A DNA stretch of 64,000 nt, taken from Streptomyces glaucescens. Its GTDB lineage: Bacteria; Actinomycetota; Actinomycetes; Streptomycetales; Streptomycetaceae. The translations under genes and the position numbers were made by a program. The stretch is from assembly GCF_000761215.1 (NCBI RefSeq), contig NZ_CP009438.1:5101501-5165500 (forward strand), given 5' to 3'. Each line of letters opens with the position of its first letter. Positions within the stretch are counted from its first letter, which is position 1. Below the pieces are notes generated by a model. It was not told the DNA's origin. It did no database searches and saw only the letters and a program-made list of their open reading frames with translations. Below, piece after piece: positions 3,527-24,723 of this stretch.

Positions 3527-4441
<915 letters not shown>

Positions 4442-4510: not shown

Positions 4511-4563
4511 TTTGGTCTGGGCCAAGCTCCCGGTACTGGTCTACACCATTGGTCCAGGTCCCG
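4511..4563. promoter_or_regulatory. dre cluster in front of dasA
   Basis: TTTGGTCTGGGCCAAG (4511-4526) and ACTGGTCTACACCATT (4535-4550) lie 24 bases apart. A third partial copy starting ATTGGTCCAGG runs on from the second. The middle one matches the dre consensus best. They end about 70 bases before the dasA start, so DasR bound here would block the dasABC promoter. The rest of the 341-base gap holds no gene. Confidence 0.85.
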
Positions 4564-10773: not shown

Positions 10774-10803
10774 TGTGGTTTAGACCAATCTGGAGACCAA
10801 TCT
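10774..10803. promoter_or_regulatory. dre-like site and repeated half-site before nagB
   Basis: TGTGGTTTAGACCAAT (10774-10789) matches the dre palindrome at most positions. The half AGACCAATCT then occurs twice with a two-base spacer (10782-10791 and 10794-10803). Together they lie 52-81 bases before the nagB start, the right place for DasR to repress nagB. I see nothing else in the 255-base gap. Confidence 0.8.
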
Positions 10804-10977: not shown

Positions 10978-11727
10978 TCAGGTCAGTGACCCTCCCGTCG
11001 CGTCGACCCAGCTGCCCGTGATCCACCGGCCGCCGTCCGAGGCGAGGAACGCCACCACGTCCGCGACATCCGCCGGCGCGCCCACCCGGCCGAGCGCCGA
11101 TATGGCCGCGGCCTGGGCCCGGCCCTCCTCCGTGCCGAGGAGCCCGGCCGTGTTGTCGGTGGCGATGATGCCGGGAGCCACCGAATTCACCGTGATGCCC
11201 CGTGGGCCGAGCACCTTGGACAGGTCCCGGGTGAACACGTCCAGGGCGCCCTTCGTCATCGCGTAGGCCATCTTGTCCGGCATCACCGCGGTGCGGGCGA
11301 GCCCCGAAGAGATGTTGACGACCCGCCCTCCGTCGCGCAGCCGGGTGAGACCGTGCTGGACGATGAAGTGGGGCGCCTTCACGTTCACCGCGAAGACCCG
11401 GTCGAACTCGGCCTCGTCGATCTCCTCGAGGGCCGGCGCCGTGCCGATCCCGGCGTTGTTCACGATGATGTCCACGCCGTCCGCGTGCCGGTCGAACTCG
11501 GCCCACAGCGCCTCGGCGTCCCCGGGCCGTCCCAGCTCCACGCCGAGCGGGAAGGCCGCGCCGCCGGCCGCCTCGATCGCCGCGACCGTCTCCTTCGCCG
11601 CCGCCTCGTTCGTGCCGTAGTGCACCGCGACCCGCGCGCCGTCTCGCCCCAGCCGCTCGGCGATACCGCGCCCGATCCCCCTGCTCGCCCCCGTGACGAG
11701 TGCCGTCCTGCCGCTCAGCGCGCCCAT
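10978..11727 (-). CDS. SDR-family oxidoreductase
   Basis: A 249-residue classical short-chain dehydrogenase. It has the nucleotide loop TGASRGIG near residue 13, NNAG near 90, and the catalytic Ser-Tyr-Lys set in NISSG and YAMTK. The sequence RVAVHYGTNEAA after the second strand suggests NADP(H). The substrate is unknown. It is read away from a TetR-type regulator with a 97-base shared promoter region that holds a clear inverted repeat, so that regulator very likely controls it. The length is standard. Confidence 0.88.
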   Translation of the reverse strand: MGALSGRTALVTGASRGIGRGIAERLGRDGARVAVHYGTNEAAAKETVAAIEAAGGAAFPLGVELGRPGDAEALWAEFDRHADGVDIIVNNAGIGTAPALEEIDEAEFDRVFAVNVKAPHFIVQHGLTRLRDGGRVVNISSGLARTAVMPDKMAYAMTKGALDVFTRDLSKVLGPRGITVNSVAPGIIATDNTAGLLGTEEGRAQAAAISALGRVGAPADVADVVAFLASDGGRWITGSWVDATGGSLT

Positions 11728-11763
11728 GCCGACGCCCCCTCCGCAATTTGCTAGTGGTCGATA

Positions 11764-11799
11764 CAGAAATGACCGTAGAGCACGCCTCTGTCATTTGTC
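11764..11799. promoter_or_regulatory. Inverted repeat between SDR and TetR genes
   Basis: ACAGAAATGAC and GTCATTTGTCT face each other around a 15-base centre, midway between the two divergent starts. This is a likely operator for the TetR-type protein, covering both promoters. Confidence 0.6.
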
Positions 11800-11824
11800 T
11801 AGCGTCCGCTATAAAATCCACACC

Positions 11825-12463
11825 ATGGTGAGCGCGCAGGACAACGAGGCGCGGAGCGCCCCGGCCGCCGGGCAGCGCGGCCGCGGCCGGCCCCGCTCCT
11901 TCGACCGGGAGACCGCCCTGGAGAAGGCGATCATGGCCTTCTGGGAGCACGGGTACGAGGCCACGTCCGTCTCCGACCTCACCCGCGCCATGGGGATCGG
12001 CGCCCCCAGCCTCTACTCCGCCTTCGGTGACAAGCGCGCCCTGTTCGACGAGGTCGTGCAGGTGTACGGCGTGCGGTACGGGTCGTTCGCCGTGCGCGCC
12101 CTCGCCGAGGAGCCCACCGCCCGGGCCGCCGTCGAGCGCACGCTGCGCGAGGCCGCCGCCGAGTACACCGCCCCCGGCCGCCCGCACGGCTGCCTCGTCG
12201 TCCACGCGGCGACCAACTGCACCACGCCCGAGGTGGAGCAGTCCCTGAGGGAGCGGCGCAACGCCAACATCGCGGCGTTCGAAAGCCGGATAAGAGCCGA
12301 CATCGCCTCAGGGGTGCTGCCGCCCGGCACCGACGCGGCGGCGCTCGCCCGGCACGTGGGGGCCATGATCCAGGGCATGTCCCAGCAGGCGCGCGACGGC
12401 GCGAGCCGGGCGGAACTGGAAGCGCTCGCGGAAATTGCCATGTCCGTTTGGCCCCGCGGATGA
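11825..12463 (+). CDS. TetR/AcrR-family regulator
   Basis: A 212-residue regulator. After a basic leader (RGRGRPRSFDRETALEKA) comes a TetR helix-turn-helix at about residues 25-75 (GYEATSVSDLTRAMGIGAPS, then LYSAFGDKRALFDEV), followed by an all-helical ligand domain with GCLVVHAATN. The GRPRSFDRE...GIGAPSLYSAFG pattern is shared with the YbjK/RutR-like branch often paired with oxidoreductases. It is read away from the SDR gene and probably represses it. An upstream in-frame extension exists but lies across the operator. Confidence 0.88.
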   Translation: MVSAQDNEARSAPAAGQRGRGRPRSFDRETALEKAIMAFWEHGYEATSVSDLTRAMGIGAPSLYSAFGDKRALFDEVVQVYGVRYGSFAVRALAEEPTARAAVERTLREAAAEYTAPGRPHGCLVVHAATNCTTPEVEQSLRERRNANIAAFESRIRADIASGVLPPGTDAAALARHVGAMIQGMSQQARDGASRAELEALAEIAMSVWPRG

Positions 12464-12562
12464 CCGGAGCGGGTTAGGCTTCCCAAGGCCGGGAAACGGC
12501 TGTCGGCCCCGCGCCGCACTGGTCTTCAGACAACAAACAGCTTCCGACGCATGGACACGCCG

Positions 12563-12578
12563 AGTGGTCTAGTCCACA
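12563..12578. promoter_or_regulatory. dre-like DasR site before the small RNA
   Basis: AGTGGTCTAGTCCACA is a near-perfect dre palindrome with the central GTCTAG of the consensus. It stands alone in the gap between the TetR gene and the PdtaS-like kinase gene, about 12-27 bases before the proposed 5' end of the scr5239-like RNA. In S. coelicolor that small RNA is known to depend on DasR. Confidence 0.8.
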
Positions 12579-12589
12579 ATCGTTGCAGG

Positions 12590-12765
12590 CCACCGTCATG
12601 GGAACTCACCGTGCGGTAGTCCCGCGACGGCGGGACCATGCGGGGGAACAAGCATCCGTCTTCCCCGCACAGGAAGACGGACCGAGGAACCGGAGCTCTC
12701 TGCCCTGACTGCCCCGGCTCCTCATCCTTCGGCCGACCGGGACCGCACACCCCACGGCCGATATT
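12590..12765 (+). ncRNA. scr5239: Probable scr5239-type small RNA
   Basis: The 445-base gap has no convincing protein gene but holds a run of hairpins. GTCCCG/CGGGAC lies near 12617. A perfect nine-base stem CCGTCTTCC/GGAAGACGG lies near 12655-12679. A longer imperfect stem follows, and a final CGGCCG/CGGCCG hairpin near 12733-12764 could terminate. In S. coelicolor the 159-base RNA scr5239 lies in this gap, between SCO5238 and SCO5239. It acts on agarase, methionine synthase and PEP carboxykinase messages. The position, folding and dre site fit that RNA; the exact ends here are estimates. Confidence 0.7.
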
Positions 12766-12908
12766 GCTCCGGGCTGCGGTGCCGGGAGGGTTGAGGGTCC
12801 CTCCCAGGCGCCGCGGCCCGCGGGTGTCTCAGGGCCCCCGAAGCCGTGCGCCGGCGCCCGAGGCCGTACATTTCAGTGCCGTACGGGCCCCCGGGTACGC
12901 TCGCACCC

Positions 12909-14384
12909 GTGCCCTCCATGAACGAACTGGTCCGCCAGCACACCGCCCTCGACGACTCCGACCTCGAGTGGCTGCACCTGCTGGTCTCGGAGTGGCAGCT
13001 GCTCTCCGACCTCTCCTTCGCCGACCTGGTCCTCTGGGTCCCCACCCGCGACGGCACCCGCTATGTCTCCGTCGCGCAGATGCGGCCCAACACGGGCCCG
13101 ACCTCCTACCAGGACGACATGGTCGGCCACCTGGTCCCGCGCGGCCGCCGCCCGATGCTGGACGTGGCGCTCGACGAGGGCCGGATCGTGCGCGAGGGCG
13201 ACCCGGAGTGGCGCGAGGAGGTCCCCGTCCGGGTCGAGTCCATCCCCGTACGGCGGGAAGGACGCGTCCTCGGCGTCATCGCCCGCAACACCAACCTGCT
13301 CACCGTGCGCACCCCGAGCCGGCTGGAGCTGACCTACCTCCAGTCCGCCTCGGACCTCGCCCAGATGATCGCGGCCGGCGCCTTCCCCTTCGCCAACCAG
13401 CAGGTCGACATGGACGCCTCGCCCCGCGTGGGCGACGGCCTGATCCGGCTCGACGCGGACGGCATCGTCCAGTACGCCTCGCCGAACGCCCTCTCCGCCT
13501 ACCACCGTATGGGTCTCGCCGCCGACCTGGTCGGCCACCACCTCGGCCGGACCACCGCCGAACTGGCCCCCACCCGCGGACCGGTGGACGAGGCGCTGGC
13601 CAAGGTCGCCAGCGGATGGGCGCCCCGCGAGTTCGAGATCGAGGCCAAGGACGGGGTGATCCAGTTCCGGGCGATCCCGCTCAAGCCCAAGGGCACCCGC
13701 ATCGGCTCCCTGGTGCTGCTCCGGGACGTCACCGAACTGCGCCGACGCGAACGCGAGTTGATCACCAAGGATGCCACCATCCGGGAGATCCACCACCGGG
13801 TGAAGAACAACCTCCAGACGGTGGCCGCCCTGCTGCGCCTCCAGGCCCGGCGCATCGAGTCGGAACGGGGCCGCGCGGCGCTCGAAGAGGCCGTACGGCG
13901 CGTGGGCTCGATCGCGATCGTGCACGAGACGCTGTCCCAGAACCTCGACGAGCGGGTGGAGTTCGACGAGATCGCCGACCGCGTGCTGGCCATGGTCGCC
14001 GAGATCTCGCCGGGCAAGGTCACCGGCCGGCGCACCGGCCGCTTCGGCATCCTGGACGCCGAGGTCGCCACCCCGCTGTCCATGGTGCTGACCGAAGTGC
14101 TGCAGAACGCCCTGGAACACGGATTCCGGGAGGGTGACACCGGAACGGTGGAGGTCTCGGCGGTCCGCGGCGGCACCTCGAAGGAGGGCCGCCTCCTGGT
14201 CACCGTCCAGGACGACGGCGTCGGCCTGCCCCCCGGCTTCGACCCGCGCACCTCCGGCAATCTGGGCCTGCAGATCGTGCGGACGCTGGTCGAGGGGGAG
14301 TTGGGCGGCACCTTCGACATGGTCCCGGCCCCGGAGCGCGGCACGCAGGTGCTCCTGGACCTGCCGGTACGGGCGCAGAAGTAG
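12909..14384 (+). CDS. pdtaS: PdtaS-like sensor histidine kinase
   Basis: A 491-residue soluble histidine kinase. Residues 1-150 form a GAF-like sensor region (HLLVSEWQLLSDLSFADLVL is highly typical of actinobacterial PdtaS). Residues 170-290 form a PAS domain. Residues 295-370 are a HisKA_2 helix pair with the phosphoacceptor in REIHHRVKNNLQTVAALL. The ATPase domain ends the protein (LQNALEHGF, DDGVGLPPGF). In mycobacteria PdtaS phosphorylates PdtaR, an ANTAR RNA-binding regulator; no such partner is encoded here. The GTG start sits seven bases after TACGCT, so the message may be leaderless; an ATG three codons on is the alternative. Confidence 0.88.
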   Translation: MPSMNELVRQHTALDDSDLEWLHLLVSEWQLLSDLSFADLVLWVPTRDGTRYVSVAQMRPNTGPTSYQDDMVGHLVPRGRRPMLDVALDEGRIVREGDPEWREEVPVRVESIPVRREGRVLGVIARNTNLLTVRTPSRLELTYLQSASDLAQMIAAGAFPFANQQVDMDASPRVGDGLIRLDADGIVQYASPNALSAYHRMGLAADLVGHHLGRTTAELAPTRGPVDEALAKVASGWAPREFEIEAKDGVIQFRAIPLKPKGTRIGSLVLLRDVTELRRRERELITKDATIREIHHRVKNNLQTVAALLRLQARRIESERGRAALEEAVRRVGSIAIVHETLSQNLDERVEFDEIADRVLAMVAEISPGKVTGRRTGRFGILDAEVATPLSMVLTEVLQNALEHGFREGDTGTVEVSAVRGGTSKEGRLLVTVQDDGVGLPPGFDPRTSGNLGLQIVRTLVEGELGGTFDMVPAPERGTQVLLDLPVRAQK

Positions 14385-23316: not shown

Positions 23317-24723
23317 ATGTCGGTAGGCGAAGAGGTCCGCACGGAGCAGAACAGGCCGCAGCAGAGCCTCGGCACGGCTGCCGCGCGGAACCTGGCCACC
23401 ACCACCAAGTCCGTTCCGCAGATGCAGGAGATCAGCTCCCGCTGGCTGCTGCGCAACCTGCCCTGGGTGGACGTGCAAGGCGGTACGTACCGGGTGAACC
23501 GACGGCTGACCTTCGCGGTGGGCGACGGACGCATCACCTTCGTGAAGACCGGTGACCGCGTCGAGGTCATCCCCGCGGAGCTCGGCGAACTGCCCGCGCT
23601 GCGGTCGTACGAGGACGAGGAGGTGCTGACCGAGCTGGCCCGGCGCTGCGAGCAGCGGGAGTTCGCCGCGGGCGAGGTGATCGCCTCCTTCGGCAGCCCC
23701 ACCGACGCGGTCTACCTCCTCGCGCACGGCCGCGTGGAGAAGGTCGGTACGGGCCCCTACGGCGAGGACGAGAGCCTGGGCGTCCAGGCCGACGGCTCCT
23801 ACCTGGGCGACCAGGCCCTGCTCGGCGGGGACGGCATCTGGGAGTACACGGCCCGCGCGGTCACCCCGTGCACCGTCCTCGTGCTGTCCCGGCAGCACTT
23901 CCAGCAGGTCGCCGAGCGCTCCGAGTCCCTCAGCGGCCACCTCGAGCAGCTGCGCTCGCTGCCCCAGCAGCGCACCAACAAGTACGGCGAGAAGGCGATC
24001 GACCTGGAGGCCGGCCACACCGGTGAGCCGGACATCCCGCACACCTTCGTCGACTACGAGAGCCGGCCCCGCGAGTACGAACTGAGCATCGCCCAGACCG
24101 TGCTGCGCATCCACACGCGCGTGGCGGACCTCTACAACCAGCCGATGAACCAGACCGAGCAGCAGCTCCGGCTCACCGTGGAGGCGCTGAAGGAACGCCA
24201 GGAGCACGAGCTGGTCAACAACCGTGAGTTCGGCCTGCTCCACAACTGCGAGTACGACCAGCGGATCCAGCCGCACGACGGGGTGCCCGGCCCCGACGAC
24301 ATGGACGAGCTGCTCAGCCGGCGGCGCGGCACCAAGATGTTCCTCGCGCACCCGCGGGCCATCGCCGCGTTCGGCCGCGAGCTGAACAAGCGGGGCCTGG
24401 TGCCCGAGACGATCGACATCGCCGGCAACCGCATCCCCACCTGGCGGGGCGTGCCGATCTACCCGTGCAACAAGATCCCGGTCACCGAGGCGCGCACCAC
24501 CTCGATCATCGCGATGCGTCTCGGTGAGGCCGACCAGGGAGTCATCGGTCTGAGGCAGTCCGGCATCCCGGACGAGATCGAGCCCTCCCTGTCGGTGCGG
24601 TTCATGGGCATCAACGAGCAGGCGATCATCAAGTACCTGGTGACGGCGTACTACTCGGCGGCCGTGCTCGTCCCGGACGCCCTCGGTGTCCTGGAGAACG
24701 TCGAGATCGGCCGCTGGGGGTGA
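23317..24723 (+). CDS. Family 2B encapsulin shell protein with cyclic-nucleotide-binding domain
   Basis: A 468-residue protein of the EshA/SrpI-like family. Residues 1-85 are the N-terminal arm ([20 protein letters not shown]). Residues about 95-205 are an inserted cyclic-nucleotide-binding domain ([37 protein letters not shown]). Residues 230-468 are the HK97-type shell fold ending in [19 protein letters not shown]. Many copies should assemble into a closed protein shell that holds an enzyme. The phosphate cassette of the nucleotide domain has Asp where the usual Glu stands. GGGAGG lies 11 bases before the ATG. The next gene, a polyprenyl synthase, is a known cargo type. Confidence 0.92.

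Follow-up and report, generated by a model that had tools for sequence, protein, structure and literature searches.

The scr5239 locus

The window, that is, the whole 64,000-nucleotide stretch of Streptomyces glaucescens DNA analysed here, contains a gap of 445 bases (12464-12908) with a TetR-type gene on one side and a PdtaS-type kinase gene on the other. A preliminary description made from the sequence had singled out this gap and proposed that a DasR site stands there directly in front of a probable scr5239-type small RNA. The features of the locus are as follows.

3527-4291, minus strand: dasR-type regulator gene, 254 aa, with UTRA and GntR domains
11693-12463: TetR-type gene
12552-12557, plus strand: TGGACA, predicted as the -35 hexamer for scr5239, part of the only sigma70-like site in 12400-12950
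12563-12578, plus strand: dre, the predicted DasR operator, with the sequence AGTGGTCTAGTCCACA; it occupies spacer positions of the promoter and bases 1-4 of the -10 hexamer
12575-12580, plus strand: predicted -10 hexamer CACAAT
12587-12652, plus strand: predicted transcribed leader with a hairpin, putative start near 12587
12653-12811, plus strand: scr5239 small RNA, 159 nt (RF02605)
12656-12680, plus strand: stem P1 of scr5239, with compensatory changes
12763-12779, plus strand: target-binding segment of P4, AUUGCUCC at 12763-12770 and GCUCCGG-GCUGCGG at 12766-12779, predicted to pair with the pepck leader of the same genome
12909-14384, plus strand: PdtaS-type histidine kinase gene (GAF_PdtaS, PAS_4, HisKA_2, HATPase_c), an SCO5239-like neighbour separate from the RNA

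The covariance model of scr5239 (Rfam RF02605), with which the preliminary description had proposed to check its reading, matched 12653-12811 on the plus strand in full length (model positions 1-158) with 171.6 bits and an E-value of 7.1e-30, above the gathering score of 64, and the genome (7,623,774 bases in two contigs) has only this one copy. Together with the dre at 12563-12578 this match bears out the overall reading; the end of the feature had been set at 12765, which cuts the RNA short. The perfect nine-base stem noticed in the gap is P1, with CCGTCTTCC (12656-12664) facing GGAAGACGG (12672-12680). An alignment that took in 38 of the 149 RNAs of the genus gave 35 predicted consensus pairs, 12 of them with changes on both sides, mainly in P1 and P5, while P4 was weak. 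The hairpins are therefore kept with compensatory changes, and the loss of hairpins in other Streptomyces, which the preliminary description had named as counter-evidence, was not what we found. If the start is 12653, the published RNA positions 113-114 correspond to U12765 and G12766, and the P4 binding motif GCUGCGG reported for scr5239 (PMC4365011) is present at 12766-12779 in tandem with GCUCCGG. It is near certain that the object at this locus is scr5239 under DasR, and the finding as such is already known, because binding of DasR to dre and repression of scr5239 have been published for S. coelicolor.

The DasR operator and its conservation

The dre AGTGGTCTAGTCCACA differs at one position from the palindrome ASTGGTCTAGWCCAST, in keeping with its first description as near-perfect, and no other site in the window matches so well; it is also within one mismatch of the consensus A(G/C)TGGTCTAG(A/T)CCA(G/C)T. 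Its core is the asymmetric TGGTCTAGTCCA, the same as the published core of S. coelicolor, which was reported to lie 49 nt from the scr5239 start (Swiatek-Polatynska 2015, PMC4398421) as against 76 nt from core end to RNA here. In S. coelicolor, binding of DasR in front of scr5239 was reported both in vivo and in vitro (PMC4398421), DasR was reported to repress the RNA via dre (Engel 2020, PMC7025569), and loss of dre raised promoter activity about threefold (PMC7025569); the preliminary description had likewise named scr5239 as dependent on DasR. Among the 149 RNA-bearing loci of the genus, the core was exact in 138 and within one mismatch in 146, and in all 33 loci fetched from other genera the core was either exact or one mismatch away.

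Three further dre-like sites lie upstream of dasR and a solute-binding protein gene (4366-4381, 4389-4404 and 4535-4550), and the same asymmetric core as in the scr5239 dre recurs at 4368-4379. Another dre-like site, TGTGGTTTAGACCAAT, with three mismatches, is found at 10774-10789, where about 0.35 such sites are expected per strand.

RF02605 was detected at E <= 0.001 in 149 of 150 genomes of the genus, 148 over the cut-off, and the sole miss is a genome that is 79% complete. Across the family it matched 176 of 200 genomes, 103 of them over the cut-off, in 12 of 17 genera; of 296 genomes sampled from the class, 28 matched, all of the own genus. The exact block TRGACA-N7/8-TGGTCYAGTCCASAAT, which joins promoter and operator, was located in 172 of the 200 genomes of the family, again from 12 of 17 genera; block and Rfam match come apart in two genera, g4 having only the block and g11 only a weak Rfam match. 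The printed figure for the spread of scr5239 is two thirds of genomes (PMC7025569), and the RNA is also named in PMC8079986 and PMC11180011.

Named genomes gave at least 119 block stretches, and 118 of the 119 listed carry scr5239 motifs downstream. The sole exception among those listed is an Acidothermus MAG (block at L177:3611-3640, minus strand) with no scr5239 behind the block, where the following open frame may be NagA-like. Two loci from Kitasatospora and Streptacidiphilus (L175, L218) keep the promoter block and the core motifs, and the Rfam model under-detects them because stem P1 is seemingly missing. One genome (G127, locus L140) gave two scr5239 matches in tandem, of 80.8 and 44.7 bits, with about 75 bases between them. 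In genus g14, a second inverted dre-like element, TTGTCCAGACCAAT, stands shortly upstream of the promoter block in 8 of 13 loci fetched (L294-L299, L302 and L303), and L307 has the variant TTGTTTAGACCAAT. In 9 loci of this genus, including that of G306, the start of the Rfam match already takes in the exact core.

A probable promoter on the operator

The predicted promoter of the window is TGGACA-N17-CACAAT, with the dre inside the spacer and the -10 hexamer. The same embedding of dre in a -35/-10 pair was present in 138 of 149 genus loci, with a spacing of 18 bp in 100 loci and 17 bp in 38, and the -10 hexamer was CACAAT or CAGAAT in 135 of these 138 blocks. A generic sigma70 criterion was passed by 137 of the 138. 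In an S. tendae locus (L162), the promoter-dre site was the sole match of the same sigma70 scan, as in the window stretch. The remaining 11 loci were inspected individually: four differ in the -35 hexamer (G024, G095, G040, G086) and one in the -10 hexamer (G100), the dre is displaced in two (G144, G014), an N hides one (G010), and three (G037, G120, G121) have lost the dre and kept TGGACA-N18-CA(C/G)AAT. The DasR proteins of these last three genomes, with 85-86% identity, are the most diverged among the best matches listed. As judged from the hexamers, such dre-less genomes separate promoter from operator.

The distance from the -10 hexamer to the Rfam 5' end varied from 2 to 127 nt across the 138 loci and was at most 18 nt in 78 of them. 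The distance from dre to the hexamers is thus fixed in the genus loci while that from dre to the RNA is free, and on a pdtaS tree the class of leader length changed at least 23 times. The leaders fold: those of at least 24 nt (n = 47) had a mean folding z of -1.84 against dinucleotide shuffles, with 35 of 47 below -1, whereas controls of equal length averaged -0.29 just upstream of the -35 hexamer, 0.28 further upstream and -0.11 after the RNA. The mean was -1.62 in 35 loci of one orientation and -2.48 in 12 of the other, and the p-values of leader folding overstate the case because the rows are related. The leader of the window has 66 nt and a z of about -2.

Because the block is conserved, leader length varies, dre-less genomes keep the hexamers and the leaders fold, we suggest that DasR probably blocks the polymerase, that transcription starts near 12587 and that the 5' end is processed. 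From these sequence patterns, it appears likely that the dre sits directly on the scr5239 promoter; that processing yields the 5' end of the 159-nt RNA is likely too, with less assurance.

The main alternative follows the published S. coelicolor arrangement: scr5239 would be transcribed from a separate promoter immediately before 12653, with dre as an upstream operator outside that promoter. The published start works out at 5,699,861 (Vockenhuber 2015, PMC4365011) and coincides with the Rfam 5' end, and a construct cut down to the first 50 bp of promoter sequence, without dre, reportedly had about three times the wild-type activity (PMC7025569). The activity of this construct argues against a promoter on the operator, which would then need a second promoter or read-through, and one genome (G062), where the -10 hexamer is only 2 nt from the RNA, also counts against our reading. 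However, in the 32 loci with leaders of at least 40 nt, no column between positions -45 and -4 ahead of the RNA exceeded 0.42 bit, and only the last three bases before it are purine-rich; in none of the 138 loci was another sigma70-like site placed for the annotated 5' end, by a criterion that leaves other sigma factors outside its reach. The free distance from dre to the RNA likewise speaks against a separate promoter, and we regard it as unlikely.

The portions of the scr5239 literature available to us contain no statement of an overlap between promoter and dre, which does not prove that none exists. The new detail of the present analysis is that the dre apparently lies directly on the promoter of the RNA across the family, so that the true start is probably upstream of the published one. 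We also lean, somewhat more cautiously, towards a wider reading in which dre is fused to the scr5239 promoter family-wide, the published 5' end arises when a fast-evolving hairpin leader (structured, with no conservation of sequence) is transcribed and then removed by processing, and the cassette of promoter, operator and RNA has flipped several times between tetR and pdtaS.

Neighbourhood and orientation

Since scr5239 lies 97 nt upstream of the PdtaS-type gene on the same strand here, and that of S. ambofaciens has also been called as a UTR (PMC8388888), the RNA might mainly be a cis-acting 5' leader of this gene. Against this, of 149 loci the cassette shares the direction of pdtaS in 79 and points away from it in 70, with at least 7 changes of orientation on the pdtaS tree, and the SCO5239 transcript was reported to be leaderless (PMC4365011). 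As its orientation relative to pdtaS flips, scr5239 is not simply a pdtaS leader; a main role of this kind was rejected for want of conserved orientation, and we consider it highly improbable. The start codon of the PdtaS-type gene is GTG at 12909, and a TACGCT 7 bases before it (within 12896-12911) fits a leaderless transcript as reported for SCO5239. Nor was evidence found for scr5239 as an ANTAR target, as the PdtaS-type neighbour might suggest; PMC8164766, as far as its text was available, cites scr5239 in the reference list only.

The das locus, placed 8 kb away in the preliminary description, is indeed close: the dasR-type gene lies 8.3 kb from scr5239. A DasR homologue is present in 150 of 150 genus genomes (99% identical in the near relative G017), and in 133 of the 134 of 149 genomes with both on one contig among the matches listed, dasR lies 1.2-21.6 kb from the RNA, and 5.9 Mb away in one. 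In 13 genomes (G117, G003, G132, G131, G027, G130, G142, G080, G146, G111, G020, G033, G016) the distance is only 1.2-2.9 kb, so the das transporter genes seem to be gone there, with regulator and RNA still together.

A chance palindrome beside unrelated hairpins can practically be dismissed: a genome-wide search gave 4 distinct sites for the 12-bp core TGGTCTAGWCCA against 3 hits for a reversed control pattern, but the RF02605 match already contradicts chance, as do family-wide conservation, covariation and published function. The core alone is weak evidence genome-wide and its conservation is strong evidence; the genome-wide rarity of the core was accordingly dropped as proof, since the reversed control is similar. 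Twenty 64-kb sequences from an order-1 Markov model, searched on one strand, contained no site within two mismatches of ASTGGTCTAGWCCAST.

Targets

In S. coelicolor, scr5239 was reported to pair via P4 with the pepck, metE and dagA messages, to repress PEPCK through P4 (Engel 2020, PMC7025569), and to act on metE, with induction by methionine (Vockenhuber 2015, PMC4365011); dagA, whose agarase message the preliminary description had also named, has been reported from S. coelicolor only (PMC7025569). The PEP carboxykinase message, named as a target in the preliminary description, holds here to the extent that a pairing is possible: the pepck leader of this genome, GGAGCGAUC-GUG, could pair through its ribosome-binding site GGAGCGAU with AUUGCUCC (12763-12770) over a predicted 8 bp including one G-U. 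The gene pepck is present in 61 of 61 genus genomes examined. Its start could be placed in 23 of 30 loci and not in the other 7, and a pairing of at least 8 nt at the ribosome-binding site was found in 5 of those 23 genomes. As the segment of the small RNA also varies, a conserved pepck pairing is unsupported as the cause of the conservation of the RNA. For metE, TIGR01371 matched 46 of 61 genus genomes (39 over the cut-off) and had no match in the own genome. The RNA is conserved here while metE is undetected, which suggests that other targets keep scr5239.

Proposed mechanism and related systems

We propose, with a probability of roughly 0.78 for the explanation as a whole, that the locus encodes a trans-acting, DasR-repressed orthologue of scr5239 with its promoter on the operator, whose leader is processed and which lowers PEPCK. 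DasR at 12563-12578 would physically block RNA polymerase until a sugar-phosphate ligand releases it and transcription can begin near 12587. The 66-nt leader would fold as a separate hairpin and would probably be removed by cleavage within the purine-rich linker that precedes P1, and the resulting 159-nt RNA may lower PEPCK by covering its ribosome-binding site.

The S. coelicolor system is the same RNA family of 159 nt with the same dre core and in the same setting, near dasR and before an SCO5239-type gene; it differs in the distance from dre to RNA given above and in metE, a target there that was undetected in this genome. In E. coli, the small RNA Spot 42 is repressed by CRP-cAMP, a carbon-sensing regulator, and tunes central metabolism. 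The two systems work alike, yet RNA, regulator and signal are unrelated.

From the genomes compared, an N-acetylglucosamine-linked regulator would control a central-carbon small RNA in almost every Streptomyces and in several genera related to it, a wider spread than the printed two thirds. Should the promoter indeed sit on the operator, DasR would act by simple promoter blocking, the transcript would exceed its assumed length, and reporters built around the published start would need re-examination. Elsewhere in the window, Sernc350 (RF02735), a Saccharopolyspora antisense RNA family, has an Rfam match at 23347-23855 on the minus strand with 115.5 bits.
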